Shown here one piece after another: positions 6,020 through 31,896 of a DNA stretch of 58,849 bases (position 1 is the stretch's first letter; every line of letters starts with the position of its first letter). A program made the position numbers and the translations under genes. The DNA is from Megasphaera massiliensis (lineage in GTDB: Bacteria > Bacillota > Negativicutes > Veillonellales > Megasphaeraceae). A model generated the notes under the pieces. That model did not search any database. It was not told the origin of the DNA and worked only from the letters and a program-made list of their open reading frames with translations. The stretch lies in the NCBI RefSeq assembly GCF_000455225.1, contig NZ_HF954535.1, positions 123,622 to 182,470 on the forward strand, read 5' to 3'.

Positions 6020-6025
6020 GTATCG

Positions 6026-7069: not shown

Positions 7070-7074
7070 TGTAT

Positions 7075-15917: not shown

Positions 15918-16678
15918 ATGACTAAAAAATACTTTTCTTTGACATTGACGGGACCCTGGGTCTTGGAATTTCAAGCATCATTCCGGCTGACAGCCTCTAT
16001 TGCCTGCGCCGCCTCATGAAGGCCGGCCATTTTGTATCCATCGCCTCGGGAAGATTACAGCACGATGCTCAGACCTTTGCCGACCGCTATGGGATACCGG
16101 CCGTCGTAGCCGACGGCGGCAACAGCTTGTCCTTAAACGGAGACGTGTTCGAAATGACCGGCCTTCCCCTTGAAAACTGCAAATCCCTTTTACACGAATT
16201 GGATCGGCGCGGCTTTGCCTGGGCCGTCGTCACCGACAACACGATCCATCGTTACACCCCCTATGAGACCTTTCCTCACGCCGACCCGCGCAACTATATG
16301 AAAACCGTCGTCAAACCCATCGATATCGACGAGTTGACGACGGTCTATAAAATCATGTACGCCCGGCCGGAGAAAAAAGATGATGAACCCGATTCATACG
16401 GTCTGCCTCACTTGGAATATATCGACCATACATACCTCATCGAACCGACGGATAAGCGCCGCGGCATCCTGCGCATGCTGTCCCGCGTCGGCGGAAAGCC
16501 GGAGGACGCCGTCGTATTCGGTGACGGATTCAACGACATCACCATGTTCGAAAAGCCATTCTTCGCCATCGCCATGGGCAACGCCCGGGAGGCCCTCAAA
16601 GAGCGAGCCGACTATATCACAGACGACCACGACAAGGGCGGCATTTTAAAGGCCTGTAAAAAATTCGGCTGGTTATAA
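15918..16678 (+). pseudogene. HAD-superfamily (Cof-type) hydrolase with a one-base frameshift near the start
   Basis: The ATG at 15918 has a good ribosome-binding site, but the frame stops after 34 codons. Adding one T to the run TTTT at 15933-15936 restores a frame reading MTKKYFFDIDGTLGLGI, the catalytic DxDGT motif of HAD phosphatases. That frame runs without a stop into the rest of the gene: AGGEGYLD-equivalent core, GIPAVVADGGN, and the C-terminal VVFGDGFNDITMFE with K before it and ITDDHDKGGI at the end. Without the repair, translation could begin only at ATG 16016, losing the catalytic aspartates. So either the gene is broken, the tract is a slippage site, or the sequence has a homopolymer error. 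It overlaps telA convergently by 6 bases. Confidence 0.8.
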
Positions 16679-17827
16679 GGGATCGTTCCGGCCGGCCCCT
16701 TTAAGGAGTGCATCTTTCAGCCGGTCTTCGATCTGAAGCAGTTCCTGTTCGGCTGCCTGCCGCTTCTGACGGCCTTCACTTTGAATGCGAAGCGTATCTT
16801 CAATGGTAGCAATCAAATCGTCATTGACCTGTTTTACCGTTTCGATATCGACGATGGCCCGTTCATTTTCAACGGCCGTGTCATGAGAATTCTGCTTGAG
16901 CATGGCGGCATTGCGCTTTAAGAGGTCATTCGTCGTATTGGACACAGCCTGCTGCATCTGGAGGGCTTCCTTCTGCCGACTAAGACCGAGGGCCAGGATC
17001 ATCTGGTTCTTCCACAGGGGGATCGTATTATAAATAGCACTCTGAATCCGATCGACGAGGATTTTGTCATTGTCCTGGATGATCCGGATCTGCGGCGCCG
17101 TCTGAATGGCAATGGTCTTACTGATTTTCAGGTCATGAACCTTCTTTTCAAAGCGGCTGACAGAATTTTTAAAATCCTGGACAACCTGTGTCGCCATCGG
17201 GTTGTCTGAGGCCTGAGCCTGGGCTTCCAATTGAGGAATCGTCGTTTCATTCAATTCCTGAATTTTTTCTTCCCCGGCCTGGATGTAGAGCTGGAGCTGC
17301 TTAAAATATTCCAAATTCTTATCGTACAGCCCGTCGAACATGGCTACGTCCTTCATGAGGATCATCTTCTGCCTGTCGAGACCGGCCTGAATATTGTCGA
17401 TCTGAGCCGACAAGGTCAAATAAGACTGCTGCAATGCCGGCACCTTTTTAAATAAGGACCCGACGACAGGGATATTCGCCAAGAATCCCTTAGGGCCATC
17501 TTGTTCTTCTTCAAAATCGTGAACTTTCTTTACCAGGTCGTTGAGAAGGTCACCGGCTGCCGTCTGATCAGTACTCTTTACGGTCGATAAGATGCTGTTG
17601 GAGAAAGACGCGATATTGTTTTGGGCAGCAATGCCGTATTGGGCAATGGCATTGGCCGTGACCAAGTTTATCGACTCTTTGATGGTATCGACTTGTTTCC
17701 GTTCTTCGGCTGTAAGCGTTTCCACCTGACGATTAAAATTGACCAGTTCCTTCTTTTCATAACTTTTGGGAGTGCCCTCATCGGACTGTTTTTTATCCAA
17801 AAGGTCGTTCAAATTAATCTCCGCCAT
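16673..17827 (-). CDS. Toxic anion resistance protein, TelA family
   Basis: A 384-residue, mostly helical soluble protein typical of TelA/YceH, associated with tellurite and cell-envelope stress resistance by an unknown mechanism. Family features include LTAEERKQVDTIKESIN, the DLVKKVHDFEEEQDG region followed by PVVGSLFKK, and the C-terminal WKNQMILALGLSRQKEALQ and QSEGRQKRQAAEQELLQIE segments. It lies 9 bases downstream of the xpaC-like gene, and the two are usually found together. Its 3' end overlaps the convergent HAD gene. Confidence 0.92.
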   Translation of the reverse strand: MAEINLNDLLDKKQSDEGTPKSYEKKELVNFNRQVETLTAEERKQVDTIKESINLVTANAIAQYGIAAQNNIASFSNSILSTVKSTDQTAAGDLLNDLVKKVHDFEEEQDGPKGFLANIPVVGSLFKKVPALQQSYLTLSAQIDNIQAGLDRQKMILMKDVAMFDGLYDKNLEYFKQLQLYIQAGEEKIQELNETTIPQLEAQAQASDNPMATQVVQDFKNSVSRFEKKVHDLKISKTIAIQTAPQIRIIQDNDKILVDRIQSAIYNTIPLWKNQMILALGLSRQKEALQMQQAVSNTTNDLLKRNAAMLKQNSHDTAVENERAIVDIETVKQVNDDLIATIEDTLRIQSEGRQKRQAAEQELLQIEDRLKDALLKGAGRNDPL

Positions 17828-17836
17828 AATAACACC

Positions 17837-18532
17837 CTACTTTCGTTTCGTATTTAAAAATTTATCCGTCAAATCAATGATTGAGTTGACCAAATCATTA
17901 TTGCGTTCCGGAATTTTTCGGCTTTCGGGAATTTCAGGCTTTAAGCCGTCGGCAGCCATATTGTCCTTCATAACCTTCATTTCTGCATCGAGGTCCATGA
18001 GCTGGGCATTGAGGACCTTAGAAAATTGGTCGGCATAGGCTTCATCAAAATTATTCAAGAGTCGTTTAATCTGAAGCTTAGACTGCTGTACTTCCGCAGC
18101 GTCAAGGCCGGTCTGTTCCAGTTCTTTATACTTTTGTACCAACAAAATGGCTCGATCTTGGTAATAATCGACGAAGCGGCGTGCCAGACTGATTCGTTCC
18201 GGATGACTTTGGAGATACGTCAAAAAATTTTTAGCAATGCCCTGCATCTTGCCAACCTGCTTACGCAGTTCCTTATCGCTTAAGGTCTTCATTTCCCGAT
18301 CAAGGGTATTGAAGTCTTCGACGGCCCGCTTAAAGAGGTCGGTGTTGAGTTTGTCGAGCTCTTCATTGCCGCTGGAAACGACGACTTTAGGCTTGAACTT
18401 CTTCCCCCGAAAGGCAAACCGAAGGGCAACAAGACCGACGATTAAAGCAAGAATGCCCGGGATATTGGTAATTTCCAGGATCCCTGCCGTTACGAAACAA
18501 AGAAGGGCTATAAAAAACATAAGAACGCGCAT
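17837..18532 (-). CDS. XpaC-like protein (5-bromo-4-chloroindolyl phosphate hydrolysis family)
   Basis: About 231 residues: two closely spaced N-terminal hydrophobic segments (FFIALLCFVTAGILEI and IPGILALIVGLVALRF), then a soluble helical domain with DTEMKTLSDKELRKQVGKM-like sequence. It is the partner of TelA in many Firmicutes. The biochemical function is unknown despite the historical name. I use ATG at 18532 because a strong GGAGGAGG lies 7-9 bases upstream; the upstream in-frame ATG at 18592 has none. Confidence 0.85.
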   Translation of the reverse strand: MRVLMFFIALLCFVTAGILEITNIPGILALIVGLVALRFAFRGKKFKPKVVVSSGNEELDKLNTDLFKRAVEDFNTLDREMKTLSDKELRKQVGKMQGIAKNFLTYLQSHPERISLARRFVDYYQDRAILLVQKYKELEQTGLDAAEVQQSKLQIKRLLNNFDEAYADQFSKVLNAQLMDLDAEMKVMKDNMAADGLKPEIPESRKIPERNNDLVNSIIDLTDKFLNTKRK

Positions 18533-18620
18533 AATATTGCCTCCTCCGTATAAAGATTCTCTTTTGTTAATCATACCATATTTCCCGGACATTTGTCGTC
18601 ATTCTGTTAATATTTACCAA

Positions 18621-18709
18621 AAAAAGAAGCTGCCTGGGAACTGACCCCCTAACGTGGGACCAAAAATCCGACGTCAGAGGGTCAGTTCACTATTGGGCAG
18701 CTTCTTTTT
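18621..18709 (-). terminator. Large two-part hairpin ending the bamA-lpx operon
   Basis: The outer arms are a perfect 14-bp inverted repeat (AAAAAGAAGCTGCC at 18621-18634 and GGCAGCTTCTTTTT at 18696-18709). The right arm lies inside the last codons of the acyltransferase gene. Between them sits a second, 22-bp palindrome (18638-18688). On the minus strand the structure ends in a run of T. Confidence 0.7.
18638..18688. repeat. Palindrome resembling fused IS3-type terminal inverted repeats
   Basis: Left arm GAACTGACCCCCTAACGTGGGA and right arm, read on the other strand, GAACTGACCCTCTGACGTCGGA agree at 18 of 22 positions and are separated by only about 7 bases. GAACTGACCC-type ends resemble terminal repeats of IS3/IS150-family elements as I recall them. 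There is no transposase. It may be an internally deleted element or mini-MITE now serving as part of a terminator. Confidence 0.5.
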
Positions 18710-19604
18710 CAGCTTGCTTTTCTTTATAACGTTTTGTCCATTTCCAGCGATTGTGCAACCAGAACCAGTCTTCCGGATATTGACGGATATGGGCTTCTAA
18801 ACGGTCATTGAGTTCCTGTGTCGTTTCGTACATAATACGCTCTTTTTCTTCTTTTGAGAGCTTGTGATCTGCCGTGTAAGGGCGCAGCGGCGGCTGTACT
18901 TCAACGACGTGATGGTACGGCCTGTCTTCCCGGATAAAGATAGGTACGATGGGATAGTTGGCGATACCGGACATCTTGGCCGGCCCGTCAGCCGTCAGCG
19001 TATCAAGACCAAAGAATTTAACCATGATACCCGTATATCCCGGGTCCTGATCCATGAGCAGGCCGATATAGTGACCGTCCCGGAGGAGCCTCACCATATC
19101 GCGAATGCCCGTCTTATAGGTAACGTGCTGCTTCATCATGGCCCGATATTCGTTGATGAACTTATCGGCACTATGACTGTCCTGCTCCTGAGCCACGGAA
19201 ATGAGGGGATAGCCGTTCATGGCAAGGACGGCTCCGAGGAGCTCCCAGTTTCCGGCATGGGAAGCCATGATGATGGCTCCGTCACCGCTTTCCTTGAGCG
19301 CGTCTAAATGCTCGCGGCCGACGAAGGAGACTTTCTCATCGAGGGTTTCCTTCGTATAGACCGGATACCGTAAGACTTCTATGATCATAGGACCAAAGCG
19401 AAGGGTACTGGCTTTGGCAATAGCCATGGCCTCGTTCGGATCGTCGGTAATGCCGCATTTCAAAATTTGCTCCTGAGCCAATACTTTTCGTTTTTTCGGG
19501 ACAAAAGTCCAGAAAAAAGAACCTAAAAAAATGCCCAGGCTGCGGCAGCAGCCGTCAGGAAGATGGCAGATAATCCAGCTCAGACATTTCATGAAGGTGT
19601 ACAT
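18690..19604 (-). CDS. Lysophospholipid acyltransferase family protein, LpxL/HtrB type
   Basis: Probable late acyltransferase of lipid A synthesis, adding a secondary acyl chain at the inner membrane. The 304-residue protein has an N-terminal membrane segment and the HX4D/E-type catalytic motif in ASHAGNWELLGA. It also carries a second block, GLLMDQDPGYTGIMVKFFG, and the C-terminal YPEDWFWLHNRWK signature of the family. It lies 12 bases downstream of lpxD, supporting a lipid A role. LpxL and LpxM subfamilies cannot be separated by eye. Its last codons form one arm of the terminator. Confidence 0.9.
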   Translation of the reverse strand: MYTFMKCLSWIICHLPDGCCRSLGIFLGSFFWTFVPKKRKVLAQEQILKCGITDDPNEAMAIAKASTLRFGPMIIEVLRYPVYTKETLDEKVSFVGREHLDALKESGDGAIIMASHAGNWELLGAVLAMNGYPLISVAQEQDSHSADKFINEYRAMMKQHVTYKTGIRDMVRLLRDGHYIGLLMDQDPGYTGIMVKFFGLDTLTADGPAKMSGIANYPIVPIFIREDRPYHHVVEVQPPLRPYTADHKLSKEEKERIMYETTQELNDRLEAHIRQYPEDWFWLHNRWKWTKRYKEKQAEKEAAQ

Positions 19605-19616
19605 AAACTTGTCCTC

Positions 19617-20648
19617 TTACTGCTGTTCTAATTTCTGTTCTAACTGGGCAATCTTTTTCTGCAGGTCCTTGATGGTCTTGGCCATTTCCGGTAAATGCTT
19701 CAAAAATACCTGGGTGCGGCTCCATTCCATGTGAGGCCGTGCCGGGAACCCGGCATAGGTCTGATTGCCTTTGATATTGCCGATAATTCCTGACTTACCG
19801 GCAAAGACAGCGTTGTCGCCAATCGTAACGTGGCCCGTACAGCCCGTCTGTCCGGCAAAGATAACGTGATTGCCGGCCTTGGTACTGCCGGCAATGCCGG
19901 ACTGGGCAATGATAAAGCAATCTTCACCGATTTCAACGTTGTGCCCCAGGTGGACCAGGTTATCGATTTTAGTACCTCTGCCAACCTTCGTCGCCCCCAG
20001 GGTCGCATTGTCCAAGCAGGTGCAGGCGCCAATTTCGACGTCGTCACCGAGGATGACGTTTCCGATCTGCGGAATGCGGGTATGCTTCCCTTTTTCCGTG
20101 GCAAAGCCGAAGCCTTCGCCGCCGATGACGGCATGGGCCCGGATGACAGCATTTTTGCCGAGGACGCAGTGTTCGTGGATGACGGCGCCGGGATAGAGGA
20201 CCGAGCCTTCGCCAATTTTGACATGGTCACCTAAAAAGACGTAGGGATAAATGACAGACCCCTTACCGATTTCAACATTTTTGCCGATGACGGCATACGG
20301 CATGATGGAGACATCTTCCCCGATGACGGCAGTCTCATCGACGATAGCCGTCGGATGAATACCGGGCGTAATCGACTGACGGGGGTGAAACAAGACCAGG
20401 AGCTGCGAAAAAGCCAAACGGGGATTTTCTACGATGACCAGTGTATTATCACCGGCCGGTACTTCTTTGTCGACAATGACGGCGCCGGCATGGACCTGCG
20501 GCAAATATTCCGTATACGGATCAACGGCAAAGGTAATATCGTTTTGACCTGCTTCTTCCAAGCTTTTTACGTCACCAATGACGGCATCACCGTTGCCGAT
20601 GACCGTCCCGCCCAGCAATACTGCTAATTCCTGTACTGTTTTATTCAC
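19617..20648 (-). CDS. lpxD: UDP-3-O-acylglucosamine N-acyltransferase
   Basis: Third step of lipid A synthesis: it adds the N-linked hydroxyacyl chain to UDP-3-O-acylglucosamine. It has an N-terminal uridine-binding domain (about residues 1-100), then a left-handed beta helix of hexapeptide repeats (AVIGKNVEIGKGSVIYPYV and following). The catalytic histidine region is NLVHLGHNVEIGEDC, and a C-terminal helix follows. The start is GTG at 20648, preceded by AAGGGG, which gives 343 residues, the usual LpxD length. An upstream in-frame ATG at 20708 would overlap the preceding ompH gene. Confidence 0.95.
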   Translation of the reverse strand: MNKTVQELAVLLGGTVIGNGDAVIGDVKSLEEAGQNDITFAVDPYTEYLPQVHAGAVIVDKEVPAGDNTLVIVENPRLAFSQLLVLFHPRQSITPGIHPTAIVDETAVIGEDVSIMPYAVIGKNVEIGKGSVIYPYVFLGDHVKIGEGSVLYPGAVIHEHCVLGKNAVIRAHAVIGGEGFGFATEKGKHTRIPQIGNVILGDDVEIGACTCLDNATLGATKVGRGTKIDNLVHLGHNVEIGEDCFIIAQSGIAGSTKAGNHVIFAGQTGCTGHVTIGDNAVFAGKSGIIGNIKGNQTYAGFPARPHMEWSRTQVFLKHLPEMAKTIKDLQKKIAQLEQKLEQQ

Positions 20649-20664
20649 TATATACAACCCCTTT

Positions 20665-21084
20665 TTACTGCATTTTGGCAATAAGATCATCGGTAACATC
20701 GATGCCACCGGAAGGAACGGCTTCTTTCATGACGATGATGCCGACGTTTTTATCCTTAGCGATATCACCTAACCGGCTTTCAAGATCCGACATGAATTGA
20801 CGCTGCATGCTGGCGCCGAAAATATTGAGTTCCTGCTGAGCCTGCTGCTGCTTCTTCTGAAAATCTTCAGCAGACATGGTCTGTTTCGCATCCTGCAGTT
20901 CTTTATCGATAGCCTTCTGCTTATCTTCCGTCTTCTGCTTATATTGCTGAACAAGGGGCGCTTCTTTCTGTATGCGCGACATATCGACAACACCTACATT
21001 ATCTTTACCGCCGCAGCCGGCAAGAGCCCCTGTAAGGGCTACCATGACGGCGACGATTCCAAAGCGCTTCCAAACTTTTTTCAT
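20665..21084 (-). CDS. OmpH/Skp-family periplasmic chaperone, lipoprotein form
   Basis: About 139 residues with an N-terminal lipoprotein signal (VALTGALAGCGG, lipidation cysteine at about residue 23), then VGVVDMSRIQ and a long coiled coil rich in K, Q and E, ending in GGIDVTDDLIAKM. The fold suggests a Skp-like holdase for outer-membrane proteins. The ATG at 21084 follows AGGAGG; an upstream ATG at 21126 lies inside the preceding gene and lacks a site. It is the third of three OmpH paralogues and directly precedes lpxD. Confidence 0.85.
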   Translation of the reverse strand: MKKVWKRFGIVAVMVALTGALAGCGGKDNVGVVDMSRIQKEAPLVQQYKQKTEDKQKAIDKELQDAKQTMSAEDFQKKQQQAQQELNIFGASMQRQFMSDLESRLGDIAKDKNVGIIVMKEAVPSGGIDVTDDLIAKMQ

Positions 21085-21100
21085 TCCTAAAAGCCTCCTG

Positions 21101-22036
21101 TTATGCCAATTTGGCAATGATATCATCAGTCACATCGGCGGCTGTACCGACACCTTCATAGTCGGAAAAGATCATGTCGATGCCCTGTTCCTGAGCAACG
21201 GCAGCCGCCTTATCACGGATATCTGCCATGATGGCTTCTTTCACATCGTTCATTTCTTTTTCTTTTGCATCGAGCTTATCTTTCCACTCTTTATTCCACA
21301 CAGCCGGTTCGGGCCGATTTTTCAGTTCCCCCATTTGCTGTTGGAAAACCGCTTGACTCTGAAGTTTGCGCCCTTCAAGGTCGGTCTTGACCTGCTGGGC
21401 ATAGTCTTCGAGTTCCTTCTTAGCCTGAGCCTTGTAGGGCTCCATAGCCGCAGCGATTTCATTGGCCGTACTGCCAGTCACCAACACCTCTGCATTACTG
21501 CCTCTCAAGAGGGCTTGCAGCTGTTCTTCCGTCGCTGCCCGCTCTTCTTTTGAAAGGTCTAAGGTCTTCAGCTTCAGCTGGAGATTGACGATTTTTAAGG
21601 CATCGGCATCTGATATGACCGGTGTCGTCTTTTTCTTTTCTTCGACGAGGGCGTCATACTGCTGTTTTAAACGGTTGTTGAGCTCGTCCTGCTTGATGGC
21701 GACTTTAGCCTGTAATTCCTGATTGAGAGCCGCCGTACCGGCTGCATCGACAGCCGCAAACTGCTGCATCGACACGCCTTCGGCTTGAGCCTTACGGGAA
21801 TAATTCCATTGTTCAAACTGATATTGGGCAACCATGGCATTGTATTCCAGTTCTAACCGGTGATACTCGCTGTAGCGCGGATGGCTCATGACGACGTGTT
21901 CCAAGTCTGCATAGGCATAGACCGGCGTCGCTGCTGCCGCTGGCACGGATTGATCCCGATGGTTGAAAAACCACCAGCCGGCCAAGAGGCAAACGAAGAG
22001 AACCACGGCACCGGCTGCCGCATATATCCGTTTCAT
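21101..22036 (-). CDS. OmpH/Skp-family protein, long membrane-anchored form
   Basis: 311 residues, about twice the usual Skp length. An N-terminal hydrophobic segment (about 5-24) is followed by VYAYADLEHVVMSHPRYSEY and then two long coiled-coil stretches. It ends in the OmpH-like AVAQEQGIDMIFSDYEGVG and DVTDDIIAKLA. The helix could be an uncleaved anchor or a signal peptide. It lies in an operon with two other OmpH proteins (gaps of 9 and 16 bases). A periplasmic chaperone role is inferred from fold and context. Confidence 0.78.
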   Translation of the reverse strand: MKRIYAAAGAVVLFVCLLAGWWFFNHRDQSVPAAAATPVYAYADLEHVVMSHPRYSEYHRLELEYNAMVAQYQFEQWNYSRKAQAEGVSMQQFAAVDAAGTAALNQELQAKVAIKQDELNNRLKQQYDALVEEKKKTTPVISDADALKIVNLQLKLKTLDLSKEERAATEEQLQALLRGSNAEVLVTGSTANEIAAAMEPYKAQAKKELEDYAQQVKTDLEGRKLQSQAVFQQQMGELKNRPEPAVWNKEWKDKLDAKEKEMNDVKEAIMADIRDKAAAVAQEQGIDMIFSDYEGVGTAADVTDDIIAKLA

Positions 22037-22045
22037 AAGAACTCC

Positions 22046-22558
22046 TTACTGATTGTTGCTGGTGCTGCTGGAGGAAGCACTCGAATTCTGGTTCAGTTCT
22101 TTCGTAACCTGATCGGTAATATCCGTGCCGCCATAGAGAACGACGCTCTTTTCAACAACCAGGCTGAGGCCTTTCGTCTGGGCTACATTACCGACAGCCG
22201 TATCAACCTTATCTTTCAGGCCTTTAAAGAGTTCCTGACGTTTCGTAGTCAGTTCGCCCTGCATCTTCTGGAAGAGTTCCTGTTTCTGCTGATCATCCAT
22301 GTTGGCCGACTGCTGTTCAAACTGTTTCTGCATATCTGCTTCGGCCTGCTGGAGCTGTTTCTGTACTTCAACGGCATCCTGGTTATCCGGCGTAATGATT
22401 TTGCTGGTATCGACGACGCCGATATTGCTCGAAGGCGCTGCATTTACCGGATTGCCCGTCTGCATGATAGCAAGACCGGCGATACTGAATACAAAGATAG
22501 CGGCAATGACTGCCGAGAAAATTTTAATATTGCGTTTCTTACCCATTTCAGACATCAT
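22046..22558 (-). CDS. OmpH/Skp-family periplasmic chaperone
   Basis: 170 residues: an N-terminal signal or anchor helix (about 12-32, ending PVNAAPSS), then IGVVDTSKII, a glutamine-rich coiled coil (about 60-110) and the C-terminal VVLYGGTDITDQVTKEL typical of OmpH/Skp. The tail is a low-complexity SSASSSSTSNN stretch. It is the first of three tandem paralogues between the unknown exported protein and lpxD; all three end in a related xDxTD motif. In proteobacteria skp lies between bamA and lpxD, and the same order holds here with extra copies. Confidence 0.87.
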   Translation of the reverse strand: MMSEMGKKRNIKIFSAVIAAIFVFSIAGLAIMQTGNPVNAAPSSNIGVVDTSKIITPDNQDAVEVQKQLQQAEADMQKQFEQQSANMDDQQKQELFQKMQGELTTKRQELFKGLKDKVDTAVGNVAQTKGLSLVVEKSVVLYGGTDITDQVTKELNQNSSASSSSTSNNQ

Positions 22559-22578: not shown

Positions 22579-23859
22579 TTACAAATAACCTATGATTCGA
22601 AGCCAATGATCATGGTCGGATACGACATACTCTAAGCCGACGTAATCGTCCACACGATACTGAAGACCTATTTCATTTTCGGTATGCGTCATATCGCGGT
22701 CATACCGCAGGGCCCAACAGCTGCCAAGGGGCTGCCGAAACCACAGGTGATGGCTGTCGTCGAGGCTTTCAAACTGATAGCCCATCTCGGTACCGGCCGT
22801 AAAACGGTAGAAGTACCCGGGAATGATATTCCACTCAAGCTGCGAAGGCATAAATTTGACCTCGCCGTACACTTCGTGGTGACTGCCGAGTTTCCGGCCC
22901 AGATGGGCCATGAGAACGGTATCATCGTCATCACTGTTCCTGCGGCCCACATCGAGATAGGCACCGCCGCGGATGTCATAAAAATCCGTTTTCGGTGTGA
23001 CATAGATCGTCGTATTTTCATCGACAGAAAGGGTCGGTGTCACCTGGAGCCCGTAGTGCTTGACGACCCATTGGCGCTTCACATCACCGGAAAGATCCGC
23101 CATAACGTCCGGTTCATGACGACGGACGAAAGCGACCGGCAACCCTTCCAAACCGGCATAGGTATGCTCCAGATTGTTCCGAGCGCTGAGAAAGATGACC
23201 TTAGGCACATCTTCTCCTTTAATGGCTACGCGAACGTTGCGAACGACCGGAAGTTTAGGCATCATATAGACCGTCACGTCCGTTTCCTGACCGCCGCGAA
23301 TCACGATATGCGGATAAAACTCGGGAACTCTCGTTTCCAATTCCGTTTCCATGACCGATTTGACGGCACCATTGGCCCAATCGAGGGCATCGACGGGCAG
23401 ACCGATGAGCAGGTTTTCCACCATGTCACCGGCACCGCTGAGGTCTTTATCAACCATCTGGCGTCCCATTTCCGGCAAAGCCCCGTAATCGACGGTCAGG
23501 TTCACCTTGCGGATCGTATCGCCCCAAGGCCGGATACGGACATCGAGGTCGGTCCGGCTCCCCGGGTTGATGGCGATAGACTCTACGGTATAGCCGATGA
23601 GGACGCGATTGATGATATCGTTGACGATTCGCTCGTATTCCTCAGAGCGGCCGGCAATGTCTTCGCTGTCCTGATTGAGAAATACATGATTGCCGACAGT
23701 CTGAATACTGGCAGCAATCCGTCTCTGGACCAAGGGAGGGATTGCCTCTTGGACAGAAGACAGGTGTACCGCCACCTGTTCTACGGAGGCAGCGGCAACA
23801 CTACTAAGACTAGCACAGACAGTAAAGACAGTCAATAAACAAGTGCGGATTCTCATCAT
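22579..23859 (-). CDS. Exported protein of unknown function, probable outer-membrane beta-barrel
   Basis: I do not recognise a named family. The 426-residue protein has a signal peptide (about residues 1-24, SLSSVAAASVEQ). Its N-terminal half alternates in the way of a POTRA-like or cystatin-like fold (YTVESIAINPGSRTDLDVRI, TVYMMPKLPVVRNVRVAI). Its C-terminal half (about 250-426) is rich in alternating aromatic/polar strands (HEVYGEVKFMPSQLEWNII, HLWFRQPLGSCWALRYDRD) consistent with a barrel of about ten strands. It lies 18 bases after bamA and before the ompH genes, so a role in outer-membrane assembly is likely. Confidence 0.7.
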   Translation of the reverse strand: MMRIRTCLLTVFTVCASLSSVAAASVEQVAVHLSSVQEAIPPLVQRRIAASIQTVGNHVFLNQDSEDIAGRSEEYERIVNDIINRVLIGYTVESIAINPGSRTDLDVRIRPWGDTIRKVNLTVDYGALPEMGRQMVDKDLSGAGDMVENLLIGLPVDALDWANGAVKSVMETELETRVPEFYPHIVIRGGQETDVTVYMMPKLPVVRNVRVAIKGEDVPKVIFLSARNNLEHTYAGLEGLPVAFVRRHEPDVMADLSGDVKRQWVVKHYGLQVTPTLSVDENTTIYVTPKTDFYDIRGGAYLDVGRRNSDDDDTVLMAHLGRKLGSHHEVYGEVKFMPSQLEWNIIPGYFYRFTAGTEMGYQFESLDDSHHLWFRQPLGSCWALRYDRDMTHTENEIGLQYRVDDYVGLEYVVSDHDHWLRIIGYL

Positions 23860-23877
23860 CCACGACCTTTCACGACC

Positions 23878-26121
23878 CTAGAACTTGCCGCCAAAGCTGA
23901 AGTGGAACTTGCCGCCTTCGCTGCCGATACCGTAGTCTAAACGAATCGGGCCGATCGGCGTCGTAATACGGAAGCCGATACCGCCGGAATAGTGAATCTT
24001 ATTATTTTCTTTATACCAAGGAATGTTTTCTACGCCGCCCCAGGCATTACCCACGTCGGTAAAGACGACGCCCTGGATTTTTTTAGCAATGGGGTAACGA
24101 TATTCAATGGTCGCTTCATACATTTTGTTGCCGCGGAATTCATCGTCTTCATAGCCGCGCAGCGTATCGGCACCGCCCAAGGTAAAGAGGTCGTTGTAGG
24201 GCATGTCGCCGGTGGCAATACCGCCCATGAGACGAACGGCAATGACGTGAGCCCGGCCGACTTTATAATAGAGGCGGTTTTCTGCAATGAACTTGAAGTA
24301 GTCGAAGTCACCGCCCATGCCGTGACCGGCCCAAACACCGGTGAAGGCCAAGCGTTTCCCCTTCGTCGGATCGTAGACGTTATCGCGGTTATCGAAAACG
24401 TGAGACCAGGTCATGCTATTGGTCCGGCCGAAGTTATTCTTTAAATAATTGCGATAGGCATCGGCACTGCCGCCCCAATAACCATAGTAGTCGCCCGTCC
24501 CATCAACCCAGGACTGATAGTCAGCCCCGCTATTATAGTCGGTATATTTCGTTTTCTTCGTTTCTAAGGTGACATAGTCGCTGACGTATTCACTGCGGAC
24601 ACGGCCGTAGGTAACGTTGAAGCCGTTGGTCCGGCGGTCATAGTCGGCAACGGAGTCGCCCTTTTCATTATAGTCTTCGTATTCCGATTCGCGGTCAAAG
24701 AGGCTGAAGCCGATGGAGTCTCCGGCATCATTGAGGTACGGATGGGTATAGGAGAAGATATAGTTCTTATTGGAATCCGTATTACCGCCGAATTCCCAGC
24801 TGATATTGACCTTATCACCGGTACCGCGAAGGTTCGTTTCACTGAGGCCGAGAATACCGACTAAGCCGTCCGAATCGGAGTAGCCGGCACCGATGGTAAC
24901 GGACCCCGTCTTCTGTTCGGTAACGTCGATTTCAACGATGACGTTCTGGGCATTTTTCTGGCCCTGGAGGAGGCGGACGTTGACGTCTTCAAAATAGCCC
25001 GTATTATAAACACGCTGAATACTGCGGCTAGCCGCATTTTTATTGAAGATATCGCCCTTCTTCATGCGCAGTTCACGCATGATGACGTTATTCCGAGTCT
25101 TCGTATTGCCGCGGAGGTTGATATTTTCAATGCGGGCTTCGGTAATCGCAATATGGAGGGTCCCTTCGTCGTCCAAACGGACATCAGATACGTGACTCAT
25201 CATATAGCCGGCATTGGCAAAGGCCGTATTGATATTGGCAACGTCATGGCTGACGACGGCCGTATTGAGGGTCGTGCCCGGCGTCGTAGCGACAAGTTTC
25301 ATCAAATCGCCGGTGCTGATCGATTCGTTGCCGACGATGTCGATTTTCTTAACGACAGGATTCATTTGAACGGTATAGTTCAGGACAACGCCTTCAGGGA
25401 CGTTGGTAAAGGCCGGTTTAACCGTTGAAAATAAACCCGTCGCCCCGATGACATTGAGGTCATGACGAATGTAGTCCATGTTGATGGCATCGCCGACGCG
25501 CATGGCCAGACGAGGCAGGATGTTCTGTTCAATCTGCGGTTCCGGTACGGGGCTGACCGAAACAGACGTTGCGACCTTATCGACATAAGGCTTCAGTTCG
25601 GCATCGGTTACGGCTTCACCGTAGGGCAGGGATACGTCCTGTCCGGGTTGGATGACCGCCATGGGATATCCGGGAATGGAAGTATCGAACTGCATATCGC
25701 TGGTCCCGCTCATATAAGTAACTTTTTCACCGGAAATCTGCGGTGTCGTATCGACAGGTTCGGGATTTCTGGCTTCTTCAGCCTTGCGAGCCGCTTCTTC
25801 CGCTTCCTGCTGAACGGCTTCAGGACTTCTCCCGGCTGCAATGGAAGCCAGTTCATCTTCCGTTTCATAACCCGTAAGGCCTGATTTAGCAGCTTGGATC
25901 GCTTCTTCTTTAGACTCATCATTCGGCGAAGTTACGACAGCATTGACCGCTGTTTTCTTGTCATCATCCGTCGGTGCTGCCGCCGAGCCTGAAGTCGTAA
26001 CCGTTCCGGTAGTCGACGCTTCATACCCGGTCGTCGCCGTCGTATCCTCTGCCCAGACGGGGCAAGTCATTATCGCGCTGGTTACCATCAGCGCGAGCAG
26101 TTTCTTCTTCCGCATATTCAT
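23878..26121 (-). CDS. bamA: Outer-membrane protein assembly factor BamA (Omp85 family)
   Basis: Core insertase for outer-membrane beta-barrels. The 747 residues comprise a signal peptide (to about 25, CPVWAED), a low-complexity linker rich in E, A and K (about 30-135), POTRA repeats (about 180-430; IDIVGNESISTGDLMKL and INLRGNTKTRNNVIMREL are typical), and a 16-strand barrel (about 440-747). The barrel shows the conserved LGGADTLRGYEDDEFRGN loop and ends in a terminal phenylalanine (FSFGGKF). The ATG follows GGAGG. The linker before the POTRA domains is longer than in proteobacterial BamA. Confidence 0.96.
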   Translation of the reverse strand: MNMRKKKLLALMVTSAIMTCPVWAEDTTATTGYEASTTGTVTTSGSAAAPTDDDKKTAVNAVVTSPNDESKEEAIQAAKSGLTGYETEDELASIAAGRSPEAVQQEAEEAARKAEEARNPEPVDTTPQISGEKVTYMSGTSDMQFDTSIPGYPMAVIQPGQDVSLPYGEAVTDAELKPYVDKVATSVSVSPVPEPQIEQNILPRLAMRVGDAINMDYIRHDLNVIGATGLFSTVKPAFTNVPEGVVLNYTVQMNPVVKKIDIVGNESISTGDLMKLVATTPGTTLNTAVVSHDVANINTAFANAGYMMSHVSDVRLDDEGTLHIAITEARIENINLRGNTKTRNNVIMRELRMKKGDIFNKNAASRSIQRVYNTGYFEDVNVRLLQGQKNAQNVIVEIDVTEQKTGSVTIGAGYSDSDGLVGILGLSETNLRGTGDKVNISWEFGGNTDSNKNYIFSYTHPYLNDAGDSIGFSLFDRESEYEDYNEKGDSVADYDRRTNGFNVTYGRVRSEYVSDYVTLETKKTKYTDYNSGADYQSWVDGTGDYYGYWGGSADAYRNYLKNNFGRTNSMTWSHVFDNRDNVYDPTKGKRLAFTGVWAGHGMGGDFDYFKFIAENRLYYKVGRAHVIAVRLMGGIATGDMPYNDLFTLGGADTLRGYEDDEFRGNKMYEATIEYRYPIAKKIQGVVFTDVGNAWGGVENIPWYKENNKIHYSGGIGFRITTPIGPIRLDYGIGSEGGKFHFSFGGKF

Positions 26122-26137
26122 AAAAATCCTCCATTAG

Positions 26138-26743
26138 TTATTTCGCCATACCGGTACCGCGTAGGGTATGACGCGCTTCTTGTACAGTAGCTTGTAATTG
26201 GCTGTCCGACAGGACTGCCTTTTCTTCCCGCACAGCGGGCGATGCCGTTTGCTGGTCGCCTGCAGCCGGAGCGGACGGCTGTTCAGCCAGTTCTTCGACA
26301 ACAGCAGGAGTTGCTGCCATCGACGTTTGCGGCAAGGATTGAACAGAGAGCTGCGTTTCCTGATCCGTGCCGGACTTTCCGGCAGCTTCTTTGGAAACTG
26401 CAGCCGGCGGGGCTGCGCTGTCCGCAGTATCGCCTGATTCATGCTTTGGCCGTTCTCCATAAACGGATGCTTCTACCGACCGCGGCAAGTCAGTCTGCCG
26501 CGGCTGATGGAAAAGATACCAGCCGCCCGTCACCAAACAAAGGGCCGTGACGATGGCTCCAAGGCGCAAAAAGCGCTTATGGGCGGGACGGTGTCGGCGT
26601 AAATTCTTCATTTCCGCCTCGGCCAGCATCAAATTGAGTTCGCCCTTGATATCGGACTCTTTGTCAAAAGATGCTTCCGCCTTTTCCAGCCAGGACTGAA
26701 CAGCCCGAACACGGTGAAGGGTATCGTTTTGGGAGCGTTTCAT
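26138..26743 (-). CDS. Single-pass membrane protein of unknown function, candidate anti-sigma factor
   Basis: I recognise no named family. Of 201 residues, about 58 are cytoplasmic, charged and helical (SWLEKAEASFDKESDIKGEL). One membrane helix follows (about 60-78), then a periplasmic tail rich in A, P, S, T and Q (about 80-170) and a short C-terminal helix. This topology, directly downstream of a sigma-factor gene and first in the bamA operon, resembles membrane anti-sigma factors such as RseA. No sequence motif proves it. Alternatives are a scaffold protein, or a relic of the SwrB-like genes that follow sigD in motile Firmicutes. A sigma-D-like promoter precedes it at 26782-26807. Confidence 0.6.
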   Translation of the reverse strand: MKRSQNDTLHRVRAVQSWLEKAEASFDKESDIKGELNLMLAEAEMKNLRRHRPAHKRFLRLGAIVTALCLVTGGWYLFHQPRQTDLPRSVEASVYGERPKHESGDTADSAAPPAAVSKEAAGKSGTDQETQLSVQSLPQTSMAATPAVVEELAEQPSAPAAGDQQTASPAVREEKAVLSDSQLQATVQEARHTLRGTGMAK

Positions 26744-26781
26744 ACAGCCTTCTCCTTTCTGTATAAACGAATACGCTTATA

Positions 26782-26807
26782 ATATCGGATGAGGCCATAT
26801 GAGTTTA
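26782..26807 (-). promoter_or_regulatory. Sigma-D/FliA-type promoter upstream of the bamA operon
   Basis: On the minus strand TAAA (26804-26807), 14 bases, TCCGATAT (26782-26789). The Bacillus sigma-D consensus is TAAA-N14-16-GCCGATAT, so the -10 element matches at 7 of 8 positions with legal spacing. The predicted start near 26775 leaves a leader of about 32 nt with AAAGGAG before the ATG at 26743. No good sigma-A promoter is seen in the same gap. Confidence 0.6.
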
Positions 26808-26909
26808 TACCGGCAAAAGAAAGCAAAAATATGCCATAATCTATATTTTACAGCATTTTCCAATTCTTTTCACCTAAAAACAGGCCAAATTTACGAAATT
26901 ACAAAAAAT

Positions 26910-27545
26910 TTAATCCCGGCTGTCGTGAATAAAGCGGCTGAGCATCCCCCTCACCCTGCGGATGCCCCGCTTTTGCAGACGGTATACGTAAGGCAGACTG
27001 ATATCGAGGGCCTTCGCTAAATGCTTCTGCTCGACATCTTTCAGATAGACGCCTTCGACGACGGCCTGCTCTTTTTCAGGCAGGCGCTGCAATACCCCGC
27101 TGACTTTTTCAAAAAGGAACTGGCGACTCGCCGCTTCCACCGGATCCTCTCTGTCATCGCACAAGGTATCCTGCAGGGTCATCCCCTGTTCGTCCGGTGC
27201 ATCGAGGGACATGGCACTGACGGCCCCTTCCCGCTTTAAATAGTCGAGGATAGCCCCGCGGATGCGATGAACAGCAAATAAGGGAAAGGCCACACCGCGG
27301 CTGTGGTCATAGCGCTCAACGGCTTCCATGAGCCCCAGTGTCCCTTCTTGCAGGGCATCGAGCAAAAGATCCGTGTGGATATTCCAGCGCATGGCTTCTT
27401 TAAATACCAGTGGCTGGTACTGTTCGATAAGACGGCTGCGGGCCCCGGCATCGCCACCTTCTTTATAAGCCTGCCACAAAGCAGCTTCTTCTTCCGGCTG
27501 CAACAAGGTTATCTTCTGCAGTTCCTGCAAATAATCTTCCAGCAT
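26910..27545 (-). CDS. Sigma-70 family RNA polymerase sigma factor, FliA/SigD class
   Basis: Alternative sigma factor of 211 residues. Region 2 spans about residues 20-110: core binding around DALQEGTLGLMEAVERYD, and the class-specific RIRGAILDYLKREG. Region 4 spans about 150-208 (LPEKEQAVVEGVY, then helix-turn-helix KHLAKALDISLPYVYRLQKRG). The RIRGAI segment is typical of FliA/SigD/WhiG/SigB-type factors. Region 3 is short. The gene sits between tamB and the bamA operon, and no flagellar genes are in the window. The ATG follows AAAGGAGGTG. I infer that it drives outer-membrane genes. Confidence 0.85.
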   Translation of the reverse strand: MLEDYLQELQKITLLQPEEEAALWQAYKEGGDAGARSRLIEQYQPLVFKEAMRWNIHTDLLLDALQEGTLGLMEAVERYDHSRGVAFPLFAVHRIRGAILDYLKREGAVSAMSLDAPDEQGMTLQDTLCDDREDPVEAASRQFLFEKVSGVLQRLPEKEQAVVEGVYLKDVEQKHLAKALDISLPYVYRLQKRGIRRVRGMLSRFIHDSRD

Positions 27546-27595: not shown

Positions 27596-30500
27596 TTAGA
27601 AATTGTATTTATAGAGGGCACCGATAAAGTTGTTGTCGCTCGATGTCCAGGCACTGAGACTGAAGCGGCTGCCCAAATCATACATGATACCGAAACGATT
27701 GTCATCGTGATTGAGGCCAAAGGCCGCTGTGACCATAAAGTCATTGAACAGGTATTTGCCCATTTCAATATTGTAGTAGTTGTTGCCGACATCCGTATTT
27801 CTATCATTGAGGTCGAGGGACCCGTTGGTTACGGTCAGCATATCTAAGGACAAGGCTTTTTCCAGGCTCTGAGTAATACCCAAGCTGTTCAGCGTCATGC
27901 GGATGCCCGAACCGAGGAGGGAACTCATATCATCTTCACCGATGGAACTCTGGGGGCGGCCGCTGCCATTGCGCAGGGTAATGAGCGATACGATCTGCGG
28001 CTTGGTGAGCGGCGGATCCGAACGAAGCAGGAGATCCATGTTATCGGCCTGACCGCGCAGGGTCAGCATGACCGTATATTGGCCGACGCGGCTGATACCT
28101 TCGGCATCGATATACGGCAGAAGTGAGTCGTAGCGTGAAAAGTCGGCAATGGCCTTGGAAACGCGGAAATTCGTATCCAAGTAGTGAACCGAACCGCGCG
28201 TAGCTTCAAAACGGCCTGACGGATTCGGATGTTCCAGGCTGCCCTTAAAGGAAACGGCGCCGGTCACCATGAGGTCATAGAGAGCCGAGTTATAAAGACG
28301 GACCTTGTCGCCTAAGGATAAGGTAAAGTCGAGGTCCAAATCAGGCGTCGATGAGCTTTCGCTGAGGGTCAGCGGGACGTCAATGGTCGCGTTGTTGATA
28401 TCGATAAGGCCGCCGATTTTCGGTCGTCCGTCACCGGGCGTGACGTTGATATACCCCGTAAGGGGCCCATTATAGTAAGGATTATCCACATTGAGATTGG
28501 CAAAATCTGCCGATAAGGAGTACGTATCGAGGCTGCGGCCGCTCCACGAGGCATTGCCGCTGATACTGACACTGCCGGGATCCTTCTTGCCTTTTTTATC
28601 CATAGTGCCGCTGCCGCTGAGGACGGCGCTGCGTCCCTTGAAGGATAAATCGGCGTTGATATCATTTAGCGGATAAACCGTATCCTTGAACTTAATGGTC
28701 CCGTCTTTTACGGTAACGTCGCCGGTAACCTGCGGATCCGCCAGAGTTCCGCTAACCTTAACGGCCCCTTGTATCTGACCGTCGGCATCCGTTACATAAG
28801 GGGTAAGGAAGGTCAGGATATCGAGGCTCGTATTCGAGAGCTGGAAGTCGACATCCATCGACTCATCGGTCTTACCGCCGGAAAGGGCACTGACAGGAAT
28901 CGTCCCTTTGGCGCTGATTTTATAAGGGTCGCGGCTGGCACTGGCTTGCTGGACCGTAATCATGCCGCGACGAATATTAAACAGGGCAAAGGCACCGCTG
29001 ATGGAAATGCCATTGGCCGTACCGCTTCCAAGCTGAGCCGATACGTCGGCCTGAAGGTCATCAGAGGTCCCGCTGAGGTCAGCGGCAAAATCGATGGGCG
29101 CATCGACGACGAAATCAGTCTTGCCCAATACAGTCATCAAGGCCTTAGACGGGAACTGTTTCGCTGCCACCGATAAAGCCACCGGGCCATGAAGGGCATA
29201 GGAACCCTTGGCCGCTAAGGTGCCGTCTCCGATTTTAAGAGCCAGCTTATTGATATTGACGATGCCTTGTTCCAGTCTGACGTCGACGTCAGACGGATCG
29301 ATGGTTTCGCCGCCAAAAGTACCTTGGCTGATATTCCCCTTCATAGAGACTGTCGGATTGTCACTGGTACCGCTGATATCAATCTGACCGTTCAGTTTCC
29401 CGGTAATATCCTGTACCGGCATATCCGCCACTTTAATCAAACCGGCAATGTCGCCGTTGACGACCGTCGCCTGGCCACGAATAAAGGAGGTTTTCGTATT
29501 ATACATCAAATTGGCATCATAATTGCCGTCGAGCTGTGAGAAATGCAGATTGGTCAGCCGCAGTATGCTGTCGTAATAGGCAAAATCACCATGGACGTCG
29601 TTGAGGACCATATGATTAATAACCAAATTATCTGCCTTCAAAGCCCCGGATGCCGTCGGAGCGGACATAGTTCCTCCAATATGCGCCGTCAGATCAAAAG
29701 AACCGCTGCGCGGCGTCTGATTCTGCGGGGCCAGTCGGGAAACGTCGATATTTTTCCCGGTCACATCGAGATCCAGCGTATCACCAATAGAACCTTCCAG
29801 AGCTACCGAAGCCGTATAGGACGAAATATCCCCGTTCGACAAATAGACGGTTCCCTGATTGAGGCGGTAGTCAGCACTGATATTCTTATACAAGTAACCG
29901 GCATAGGAACCGCTGGTCAGTCGGAAGGAACCGGCAGCCGACGGATTGTCAAGGGTTCCCTTTATCGTCACCGTATTATCGGCCCAGCCCGTGAGCGGCA
30001 AATCTTCCTTGCCGACAAGGGGCAGCAGTTGTTCCACGCGAATATGGGACGTCGTAAGCGAAGCGTCGACAGTCCGGCTGTCCAGATCCGCTCGGCCGGT
30101 CAAGGTGTGCAGGCCTTCACCGCGCCGCCAGTAGAGGGCCGGAATTTCAATCTGTTTTCCCTGACCGTGAGCCGACCCGTTAATGCTGTCAAAGAGCATC
30201 CCTTTGATTTGGCCGTCTTTGGCACTGAAGGCCAAGTCCCAATTTTGTCCGTCAATATGTCCGGCAGCATCCGCGGTCCCGCTCATAGGAACAGACAATA
30301 GCGGCGAAGCCATATCGAGGGGGATATCATGAGCTGTAAAGGAAAATTGCGGTCGTTGTTGATCGACATCATAGGAGCCGCTGATATCAAGACTGCCGCC
30401 GCCGACATCGGCATGCCCTTGATTGACGTTGACGACATGGCCGTCATAGGTCACATCGGCCTGAGCCCGGTCCGCTGCCAGTCCATTGTAGGAAAGATTC

Positions 30501-31879
30501 GATGCCTGTACCGTCCCCGTCGCCAGGATAGAGCCATCCTTACTGTTTCCGCCAGCTCGGAACGAGCCCGAAACGAGGCCCATAACCCCGACCGGCATAT
30601 CGGGGACAGCCGTCAAATCAAGGCCTCTTACGTCGGCTTCGGCGGCATAGGCACCTGTATTTACATCATATTGGGCCTTCCCCTTGATGTAGGCGCCAAA
30701 AGCCCGGGCCGTCAGAGAATCGACGGTCACCATCTGACCGCTGTAGTTGACGTCAGCCGAAGCCTCATCGACGGTGTAGCCGTTATAGGCAAAGTTATGA
30801 ATACCGGCAGTTCCCTTCACTCGGACATCCTCTGTCGAGCCCCAGACAATACCTTTAAAATCCGCCGTCCCGCTGGTTCCTTCCGGGATGTAGCCTGCGA
30901 AAGCCGTCACATCCGCACCGGGTACGTCGACGTTGAGATTGAAAACGGGAACATCCCCATTGGTTACGACCTTACCGTCGATGCGGAAGGCCTGACCGTT
31001 GGCCAAGCCCTCGACACCTGACAGGGTAACGTCGTTGGTCGTAAGATCGGCATGGCCTTTTAATTCGTCAATGGCAACGCCGCTTACATCCAATTTACCG
31101 TCCGCAAAATCGGCCTGACCGGACATGAAAAAGCCCTTGTGACTGTCAGCAACGCGGACCTTGGCATTTTTGACAGTGCCGTTCTGAAGGACGACGTCGT
31201 TTGAGGCCGGAATGAGGAAGGACGCATACCGGGCGTCGACGGCATCGGCATTGACGACAAAGTCATACTGCCGACTGGAAGCATACCTTCCATGAGCCGT
31301 GATTTTCTGTCCGTCGACATTCATATCGGCATCGATGTCCATGGACGGGTACTTGGCGAAGGAAACACTGGCCATAACGTCGTTCCCGACGACGAGGGTA
31401 TTATCAGGCAACAGCGCCCGTACCGTACCGTCATGAACACGGATCACGCCGCGAAAGCCGGAATCACTGCTGCTTTCCGTCGGTTTCAAAATCGACGTGA
31501 TATTCCACGATCCGTCTCGATTCTGCCACAGATGAAGGACCGGTTCATTGACGTCGGCTGTATCCAATGCCTGGAGGATTTCCCCTTGCTTTAACGCCGT
31601 TACAATCTTACCGGGATTGACATAGATGCGGACGTCCTCGCCTTCGAAAACGATGCGGCCCTGCGAATCTTTAATAACCGGTTTTGCCAAGACCACTTGG
31701 CCGGTCAAAGATATATCAAGAGAAGAGAACCCCAAGGTTCCATTCAGTTTACTGTTTGCAGTTGTCGTAATCATATTGCTCGCCATTTGGGTTAAAGCCG
31801 GTTTTTCCATCCACAAGGCAATGCCGGCAGATAGAAAAAAAGCGGAAAAACCGCAGGCAGCAATCCATTTTTTCTTCAT
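27596..31879 (-). CDS. tamB: Translocation and assembly module protein TamB (DUF490 family, AsmA-like)
   Basis: Very long periplasm-spanning protein thought to form a groove carrying phospholipids between membranes and to assist outer-membrane protein assembly. It has an N-terminal membrane anchor (about residues 8-25), then more than 1000 residues of repetitive beta structure with recurring LDISGSYD-, GTADFKGIVWG- and ISGTSDNPTVSMKG-like segments. The C-terminal TamB domain (about 1080-1427) ends in aromatic-rich NFIGALYKYNF. I use ATG at 31879 because GGAG lies 8 bases before it; an upstream ATG at 31894 has no site. The sigma-factor gene lies 50 bases downstream. Confidence 0.93.
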   Translation of the reverse strand: MKKKWIAACGFSAFFLSAGIALWMEKPALTQMASNMITTTANSKLNGTLGFSSLDISLTGQVVLAKPVIKDSQGRIVFEGEDVRIYVNPGKIVTALKQGEILQALDTADVNEPVLHLWQNRDGSWNITSILKPTESSSDSGFRGVIRVHDGTVRALLPDNTLVVGNDVMASVSFAKYPSMDIDADMNVDGQKITAHGRYASSRQYDFVVNADAVDARYASFLIPASNDVVLQNGTVKNAKVRVADSHKGFFMSGQADFADGKLDVSGVAIDELKGHADLTTNDVTLSGVEGLANGQAFRIDGKVVTNGDVPVFNLNVDVPGADVTAFAGYIPEGTSGTADFKGIVWGSTEDVRVKGTAGIHNFAYNGYTVDEASADVNYSGQMVTVDSLTARAFGAYIKGKAQYDVNTGAYAAEADVRGLDLTAVPDMPVGVMGLVSGSFRAGGNSKDGSILATGTVQASNLSYNGLAADRAQADVTYDGHVVNVNQGHADVGGGSLDISGSYDVDQQRPQFSFTAHDIPLDMASPLLSVPMSGTADAAGHIDGQNWDLAFSAKDGQIKGMLFDSINGSAHGQGKQIEIPALYWRRGEGLHTLTGRADLDSRTVDASLTTSHIRVEQLLPLVGKEDLPLTGWADNTVTIKGTLDNPSAAGSFRLTSGSYAGYLYKNISADYRLNQGTVYLSNGDISSYTASVALEGSIGDTLDLDVTGKNIDVSRLAPQNQTPRSGSFDLTAHIGGTMSAPTASGALKADNLVINHMVLNDVHGDFAYYDSILRLTNLHFSQLDGNYDANLMYNTKTSFIRGQATVVNGDIAGLIKVADMPVQDITGKLNGQIDISGTSDNPTVSMKGNISQGTFGGETIDPSDVDVRLEQGIVNINKLALKIGDGTLAAKGSYALHGPVALSVAAKQFPSKALMTVLGKTDFVVDAPIDFAADLSGTSDDLQADVSAQLGSGTANGISISGAFALFNIRRGMITVQQASASRDPYKISAKGTIPVSALSGGKTDESMDVDFQLSNTSLDILTFLTPYVTDADGQIQGAVKVSGTLADPQVTGDVTVKDGTIKFKDTVYPLNDINADLSFKGRSAVLSGSGTMDKKGKKDPGSVSISGNASWSGRSLDTYSLSADFANLNVDNPYYNGPLTGYINVTPGDGRPKIGGLIDINNATIDVPLTLSESSSTPDLDLDFTLSLGDKVRLYNSALYDLMVTGAVSFKGSLEHPNPSGRFEATRGSVHYLDTNFRVSKAIADFSRYDSLLPYIDAEGISRVGQYTVMLTLRGQADNMDLLLRSDPPLTKPQIVSLITLRNGSGRPQSSIGEDDMSSLLGSGIRMTLNSLGITQSLEKALSLDMLTVTNGSLDLNDRNTDVGNNYYNIEMGKYLFNDFMVTAAFGLNHDDNRFGIMYDLGSRFSLSAWTSSDNNFIGALYKYNF

Positions 31880-31896
31880 AAGCAAGCTCCACATAC

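Follow-up and report, generated by a model that had tools for sequence, protein, structure and literature searches.

The presence of a sigma factor gene and a gene for a small membrane protein between tamB and bamA raises the question of what this pair does in an outer-membrane gene cluster. We followed it up in a 58,849-nt stretch (the window) of contig NZ_HF954535.1 from the draft genome (about 2.74 Mb) of Megasphaera massiliensis (GCF_000455225.1). The gene order on the minus strand is mlaE, mlaF, mlaD, a tolC-like gene, tamB, the sigma factor gene, the membrane protein gene, bamA, orf426, ompH, a 311-aa gene, ompH, lpxD and a lipid A acyltransferase gene (Table 1). The pair looks like an old self-regulating loop for outer-membrane control, in which the membrane protein probably restrains the sigma factor. 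In our preferred reading, to which we give a probability of about 0.6, a sigma factor of its own family drives the outer-membrane operon from a promoter in the gap behind its gene, and the first product of this operon is its membrane anti-sigma factor, so that the loop limits itself. This reading is based on gene order, co-occurrence and co-loss of the two genes, the predicted topology of the membrane protein, and a conserved promoter-like element that is absent where the sigma factor is absent.

Table 1. Features of the window (positions counted from its first letter)
Feature	Position	Strand	Remarks
Lipid A acyltransferase gene (LpxL type)	18690..19604	-	Lip_A_acyltrans; final gene ahead of a 97-bp gap
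lpxD	19617..20708	-	profile match
OmpH/Skp family gene	20665..21126	-	Pfam OmpH
311-aa gene between the two ompH genes	21101..22036	-	OmpH-like only in position and appearance; Pfam OmpH not matched
OmpH/Skp family gene	22046..22558	-	Pfam OmpH
orf426, protein without Pfam match	22579..23859	-	homologue in 11/16 outgroup loci
bamA	23878..26121	-	starts 16 bp after the membrane protein gene
Putative membrane anti-sigma factor gene, 201 aa	26138..26743	-	no Pfam/NCBIfam match; one hydrophobic segment
C-terminal helix, predicted periplasmic, residues 180-194	26162..26206	-	conservation and model; conserved, ends the low-complexity linker of the membrane protein
Transmembrane helix, about residues 61-79	26507..26563	-	hydrophobicity, AlphaFold, charge bias
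Predicted cytoplasmic two-helix hairpin, residues 1-55	26579..26743	-	conserved columns and AlphaFold
-10-like block GATATTATA of the conserved element	26778..26786	-	motif matrix
-35-like block GGTATAAA of the conserved element	26804..26811	-	motif matrix; weak copy
Sigma factor gene, 211 aa	26910..27545	-	Sigma70_r2 and r4; region 1.2 slightly under cut-off; without region 3
tamB	27596..31894	-	upstream neighbour of the sigma factor gene

The sigma factor gene follows tamB after 50 bp and is probably co-transcribed with it. A gap of 166 bp separates it from the membrane protein gene, and from there through the acyltransferase gene the genes of the window overlap or are at most 20 bp apart. 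A previous interpretation of this DNA, made from its letters alone (the sequence-only reading), had listed bamA, a protein of unknown type, three ompH genes, lpxD and an lpxL-type gene downstream; the list is correct except for the third ompH, which corresponds to the 311-aa gene.

The 211-residue sigma factor of that reading is borne out by its matches to Sigma70_r2 and r4. Among 47 genus representatives of the family (L026 and L118 left out), regions 2 and 4 are each matched in 47 of 47 and region 1.2 in 27, while no member matches region 3 (Sigma70_r3) at E ≤ 0.01. In the AlphaFold model (mean pLDDT 92) a linker connects two helical blocks. The window protein passes the general sigma-70 model TIGR02937 with 89 bits (cut-off 42.9) and falls below the cut-offs of both FliA models, with 87 bits for FliA/WhiG (TIGR02479, 189.6) and 81.5 bits for FliA (PRK06986, 201); G034 and G047 encode FliA proteins that pass both. 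In a tree with RpoD, SigE, SigF, SigG, SigK and FliA, the outer-membrane sigma factor forms its own clade (support 97/88), not inside the FliA clade, and FliA is its sister with 99/97 for the joint clade. The first tree, which included long-branched SigH and ECF rows, gave support values of 99/97 and 91/89. Both sigma factors are present together in G034, G115, G054 and G047, the FliA of G115 and G054 being assigned from tree position only. The best PDB profile matches are 6pfv and 6pfj, which we take to be WhiG, plus a FliA. The closest named match, 97% identical among the best 80 of 243 relatives, is from Megasphaera sp. UBA1696. The earlier label of a FliA/SigD-class protein is thus right in kinship and wrong in membership: judged from its sequence, the protein appears to be an alternative sigma factor of a separate family, sister to FliA and without region 3.

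Three genes with a sigma-70 region 2 are found in the genome of the window, namely the outer-membrane sigma factor, SigH and a gene with RpoD as best match; FliA was not found there. The RpoD-like gene (L001, G000:C6) ends at residue 301, covers 254 of 370 profile positions and scores 376.5 bits (cut-off 572), and the region 4 stretch sits in a separate open frame. The rpoD of this draft genome therefore looks split across two frames, perhaps by a sequencing error.

The promoter between the two genes had been proposed as a string TAAA-N14-TCCGATAT at 26782-26807 on the minus strand, taken for a SigD box. The string is present, and its position holds since it overlaps a conserved element, while its SigD consensus does not: a box TAAA-N13 to 17-CCGATA occurs in only 2 of 118 gaps between the sigma factor and membrane protein genes, those of the window and of a relative with a 94%-identical sigma factor, which does not bear out a SigD-specific box. 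The pattern TAAA-N15-GCCGATA occurs 14 times in the genome of the window, compared with 4 times for the reversed-pattern control. These numbers bear on the proposal that a FliA/SigD motility sigma factor was recently rewired to outer-membrane genes. Such a rewiring would agree with the sister position to FliA (99/97) and with the TAAA..CCGATAT string in the window; it is already contradicted by the separate clade without region 3, the scores under the FliA cut-offs, the coexistence with FliA, the occurrence of the sigma factor in 10 families outside the class and the rarity of the SigD string. We consider it hardly credible.

The conserved element itself has the consensus TG[TC]nAAA-N16/17-GA[TC]TATATA. 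It was derived from 113 of the 118 gaps (those shorter than 60 bp left out) and then from 57 genus representatives, in which a two-block search gave a dyad log-likelihood of 215.6 against 32.3-38.2 for four shuffles. Taken alone, 35 non-core genera gave nTG[TC]nAAA-N16/17-GA[TC]TATATA (129.6 against 43.7-51.5, five shuffles), and 22 core genera gave the block TGACCAkAATCTGGCCTCTTCCCAkGAyTATA (262.4 against 42.9-49.6). At p ≤ 0.05 from letter shuffles, the matrix of the 35 genera detects 29 of its 35 training genera and 19 of the 22 held-out core genera, that is 48 of 57. A -10 core lies at most 130 nt from the start of the membrane protein in 102 of 113 gaps (mean 23 and largest 37 in 100 shuffles). 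In the core group (L022, L028, L045 and others) the whole spacer of the 32-bp block is conserved and contains a near-palindromic CCA-N5-TGG, at which, to judge from the letters, a further DNA-binding protein may act.

The element could also be an ordinary weak sigma-A promoter, with the sigma factor acting elsewhere and the pair kept between tamB and bamA through old linkage only. The N17 spacing and the A/T at the main -10 positions fit this alternative, and we count them against our own explanation. The same holds for the weak copy in the window, which is most likely GGTATAAA-N17-GATATTATA: it scores 6.2 with the class matrix and ranks second in its gap, behind AGGTGAAA-N17-TAAAATATA at 26842-26875 (7.6, p 0.05). 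The weakness is shared by the genus of the window, with a best p of 0.05-0.125 in six of seven gaps and 0.025 in one. In a matrix scan of the 58.8-kb window, the promoter reaches 10.8 and 13 other places score higher; 48 places reach at least 8 (25-34 in five letter shuffles), 12 at least 11 (1-8) and 5 at least 12 (1-5), with no clear excess over the shuffles at the highest scores. Against a sigma-A promoter stands the G that opens the -10 block, conserved at 0.94-0.97 in the fitted matrices. In addition, the same matrix at p ≤ 0.05 finds the motif in none of the 18 scored bamA promoters of sigma-less genomes (25 of 28 bamA loci obtained, tamB in 22, 21 processed; L179 left out for lack of a clear start, L186 and L187 for short gaps); in two of these genera, g2 and g40, TATAAT boxes are seen there by eye instead. 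Finally, the motif is found in 3 of 3 loci of genus g4, where the sigma factor gene is parted from the membrane protein gene, and it stays with the latter. On balance we regard the sigma-A alternative as unlikely, with a small but real chance of being right.

The preferred reading, an operon under its own sigma factor, also agrees with the distribution of the pair. Full-length sigma orthologues (about 210 aa) are found in 121 of 150 Negativicutes genomes, and all 121 have tamB upstream in the same orientation. The membrane protein is encoded directly downstream in 118 of these 121 (120 of 123 loci, L125 and L126 being repeats of genomes already counted), and a bamA-like frame lies within 120 bp behind it in at least 112 of 118; among the other six, L006 and L009 show a long frame there. 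The remaining three genomes form genus g4, in which tamB-sigma and membrane protein-bamA are on separate stretches and both are kept. Behind the sigma factor gene of this genus (L121-L123) come a leader containing a GGGTGGAACCGCG stretch, presumably T-box-like, and then an ORF resembling threonyl-tRNA synthetase. A contig search of named genomes found both genes in 80 of 80, taking the best 80 of 243 relatives, all Negativicutes or metagenome-assembled genomes labelled Bacillota/Firmicutes and overlapping in species with the other counts. The environmental strain Pelosinus fermentans JBW45 also carries the sigma factor.

The two genes are also absent together. The membrane protein is found in 0 of 28 sigma-less genomes, 25 of which are at least 90% complete; weak matches in the sigma-less G086 and G126 are confined to the part behind residue 60. 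Genome G026 (74% complete) carries a sigma fragment and a piece of the membrane protein. A bamA match is present in 25 of the 28 sigma-less genomes, with tamB in the flank of 22 of these 25 loci, and the distance from the tamB stop to the bamA start is at most 330 bp in 20 of the 21 loci processed. A quick tamB tree of a 97-row subset (SH-aLRT only) requires at least 7 switches between presence and absence inside the class, and 12 in the whole tree. Thus conservation, co-loss, the split locus and the loss of the motif all point to a pair tied to outer-membrane assembly, as the sequence-only reading had supposed.

The association extends beyond the class. A membrane protein search of 398 genomes of the phylum gave 53 matches at E ≤ 0.001 and 27 at E ≤ 1e-10; the 26 weaker alignments start no earlier than model position 41. 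Of the 27 strong matches, 16 are outside Negativicutes, from 10 families. Omp85 is present in 102 of the 398 genomes, including 27 of 27 with a strong match, and none of the 296 genomes without Omp85 has one. The order tamB-sigma-membrane protein-bamA is found in 16 of 16 outside genomes with the membrane protein, although bamA of L330 runs off the contig in the locus view and was seen in a separate Omp85 search. Of the 75 genomes with Omp85 and without the membrane protein, 20 from outside the class, all of different families, were inspected: the sigma factor is absent from the 10 kb or less around bamA in 20 of 20, and tamB adjoins bamA in 15. In the outgroup gaps the class matrix succeeds at p ≤ 0.05 in only 1 of 11, which we count against our explanation. 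A -10 resembling GGATATTAT is seen by eye before the membrane protein in 5 of these 11 gaps, including L338 (G296), where 3.1 kb of other genes (about 5000 to 8150) lie between the sigma factor and membrane protein genes and GGATATTATT is retained before the latter despite the insertion. Little room for a promoter is left in 5 of 16 outgroup loci, where the membrane protein gene follows the sigma factor gene at a distance of about 30 bp or less. Homologues of orf426 accompany 11 of the 16 outgroup loci, though its protein has no Pfam match.

The single-pass membrane protein of the sequence-only reading is confirmed, with one hydrophobic segment from about residue 61, and it is most likely the anti-sigma factor of the adjacent sigma factor, as far as its sequence features tell. 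In the AlphaFold model, two helices (residues 2-27 and 31-50, block pLDDT mostly 89-93) form a hairpin, followed by the membrane helix, a low-confidence linker and a C-terminal helix (180-194). The residues before the membrane helix are the more positive side in 209 of 214 loci, a set in which some species occur more than once, and a cytoplasmic N-terminus is predicted. The linker has a median of 85 residues (range 29-194) in the same repeated-species set. Of the 11 invariant or nearly invariant columns, 9 are at residues 19-44 and 2 in the C-terminal helix.

The protein of the window has no match among the Pfam and NCBIfam families. A Pfam scan of 49 members (from 61 genus representatives) with E ≤ 1 gave 38 families, each in three members at most, and no known anti-sigma domain among the 25 of the 38 families shown; one member matches NrsF at 0.053. 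The HxxxCxxC pattern of the ZAS type is found in 0 of 214 loci, a Foldseek search with the model gave no match at E ≤ 0.001, and a search of solved structures gave nothing convincing. This lack of a recognised anti-sigma domain and of a Foldseek match is counted against our explanation. Sequence coupling between the sigma factor and the membrane protein exceeds that of 12 random re-pairings; it is not above the sigma-TamB control and was therefore not counted as evidence for the pair.

These results can also be read in terms of a BAM/TAM accessory protein that is controlled by the sigma factor and is not its antagonist. The protein stays ahead of bamA even in the split genus, its C-terminal helix is conserved and it shows no known anti-sigma fold. 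An accessory role is less easily reconciled with the concentration of conserved columns in the cytoplasmic hairpin, or with the absence of the protein from all 28 sigma-less genomes, 25 of them with a bamA match. We hold it to be distinctly improbable.

A wider regulon was searched for with TGNNAAA-N17-GAYTATA across the 150 genomes. The pattern gave 258 matches, compared with 255 for the reversed control, and hence no sign of a regulon larger than one operon. The strict pattern has low sensitivity, since it gives 0 matches in the genome of the window (G000) and misses the window's own element. Either a single operon is all that the sigma factor controls, or its other promoters follow the consensus too loosely to be caught by this search. 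The lack of a second site or regulon favours the sigma-A alternative and is counted against our explanation. The core-group block TGACCAkAATCTGGCCTC, matched in 15 of 16 genomes searched, was rejected as an operator of a wider regulon: the 8 additional matches, which have 2 mismatches, fall within long open frames or overlap them.

On this basis, the sigma factor most likely drives the membrane protein-bamA-Skp-lpxD operon, and we infer promoter recognition, binding of the two proteins, sensing and release as the steps of the loop. The sigma factor would be made from the tamB transcript and would recognise the gap promoter, from which the membrane protein, bamA, orf426, the ompH genes, lpxD and the lpxL-type gene would be transcribed. 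As the first product of this operon, the membrane protein would bind and hold the sigma factor with its cytoplasmic helical hairpin, while its flexible periplasmic tail with the conserved terminal helix would sense the status of outer-membrane assembly. Release of the sigma factor would follow through proteolysis or a change in conformation. Higher demand would thereby give more BamA, Skp and LpxD together with more anti-sigma factor, which would shut the loop again. The genome of the window contains an M50 protease gene; the family is found in 14 of 14 control genomes as well, and the gene is thus no specific evidence for proteolytic release.

A close functional parallel is sigma-E/RseA of Escherichia coli, in which a sigma factor and a single-pass inner-membrane partner with a cytoplasmic N-terminus are linked to bamA/skp/lpxD-type genes. 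The pair described here shares this arrangement, with a predicted partner topology. It differs in that the sigma factor is FliA-related with a region 1.2-like part and not a typical ECF protein, the membrane protein matches no Pfam family, the genes are inside the outer-membrane cluster, and no large regulon is seen. In the SigI/RsgI system of Bacillus, the membrane anti-sigma factor combines a short part in the cytoplasm with a single membrane helix and a long part outside, and the same architecture is predicted here; however, RsgI is not among the 25 of 38 Pfam families shown for the 49 members, and the present sigma factor has an ordinary region 4. The system FliA/FlgM is related through the sister clade, and the promoter has AAA and GAT(A/T)T features like those of the SigD box consensus, whereas the partner here is a membrane protein and the sigma factor lacks region 3, stays under the FliA cut-offs and coexists with FliA. 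The system WhiG/RsiG is similar in that the presumed WhiG chains are the top PDB profile matches and a helix pair is predicted for the partner. The accessible text of PMC8325347 describes RsiG as an antiparallel coiled-coil that carries a c-di-GMP motif. In contrast, the motif E(X)3S(X)2R(X)3Q(X)3D is found in 0 of 214 loci here, and the partner has a membrane segment.

In the accessible parts of the literature on Negativicutes, Selenomonas and diderm Firmicutes dealing with sigma and anti-sigma factors or envelope stress, we found no description of this pair, nor of the control of outer-membrane assembly in two-membraned Firmicutes. The word sigma has 0 occurrences in the main text, as far as accessible, of the outer-membrane cluster paper PMC5007114 and appears only as a company name in that of PMC10665443, and the accessible text of PMC10628300 and PMC7985256 holds nothing on the pair. 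In Veillonella parvula, mlaEFD is upstream of tolC and tamB (PMC10665443, accessible text), and TamB (Vpar_0526) and BamA/TamA (Vpar_0527) have neighbouring locus tags (PMC5491611, likewise). With these adjacent tags V. parvula appears to be without the pair, and work in this laboratory model would therefore miss the circuit. A broader proposal, whose chance we would put just short of even, is that diderm Firmicutes evolved a nearly single-operon sigma/anti-sigma circuit of their own to control outer-membrane assembly, without relation to sigma-E/RseA and with the periplasmic helix as sensor, before Negativicutes and other two-membraned lineages split, and that several losses followed, probably including one in Veillonella. 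If true, the circuit would solve independently the problem handled by sigma-E/RseA, and a sigma factor kept beside bamA over such distances and missing only where its partner is missing too would mark the ancestral outer membrane of Firmicutes.

Two further observations concern the borders of the cluster. Upstream of mlaEFD, a 672-aa protein (36742-38760, minus strand) has a partial match to SpoIVB peptidase S55 and a GMSGSP stretch; we consider it a candidate signalling protease. Some diderm genomes without the sigma factor (L347, L349, L355 and L361) have ORFs resembling it, either just upstream of bamA or at a greater distance in that direction. At the other end, a TelA and Halogen_Hydrol (XpaC-like) gene pair lies at 16673-18592 on the minus strand, behind the lipid A acyltransferase gene.
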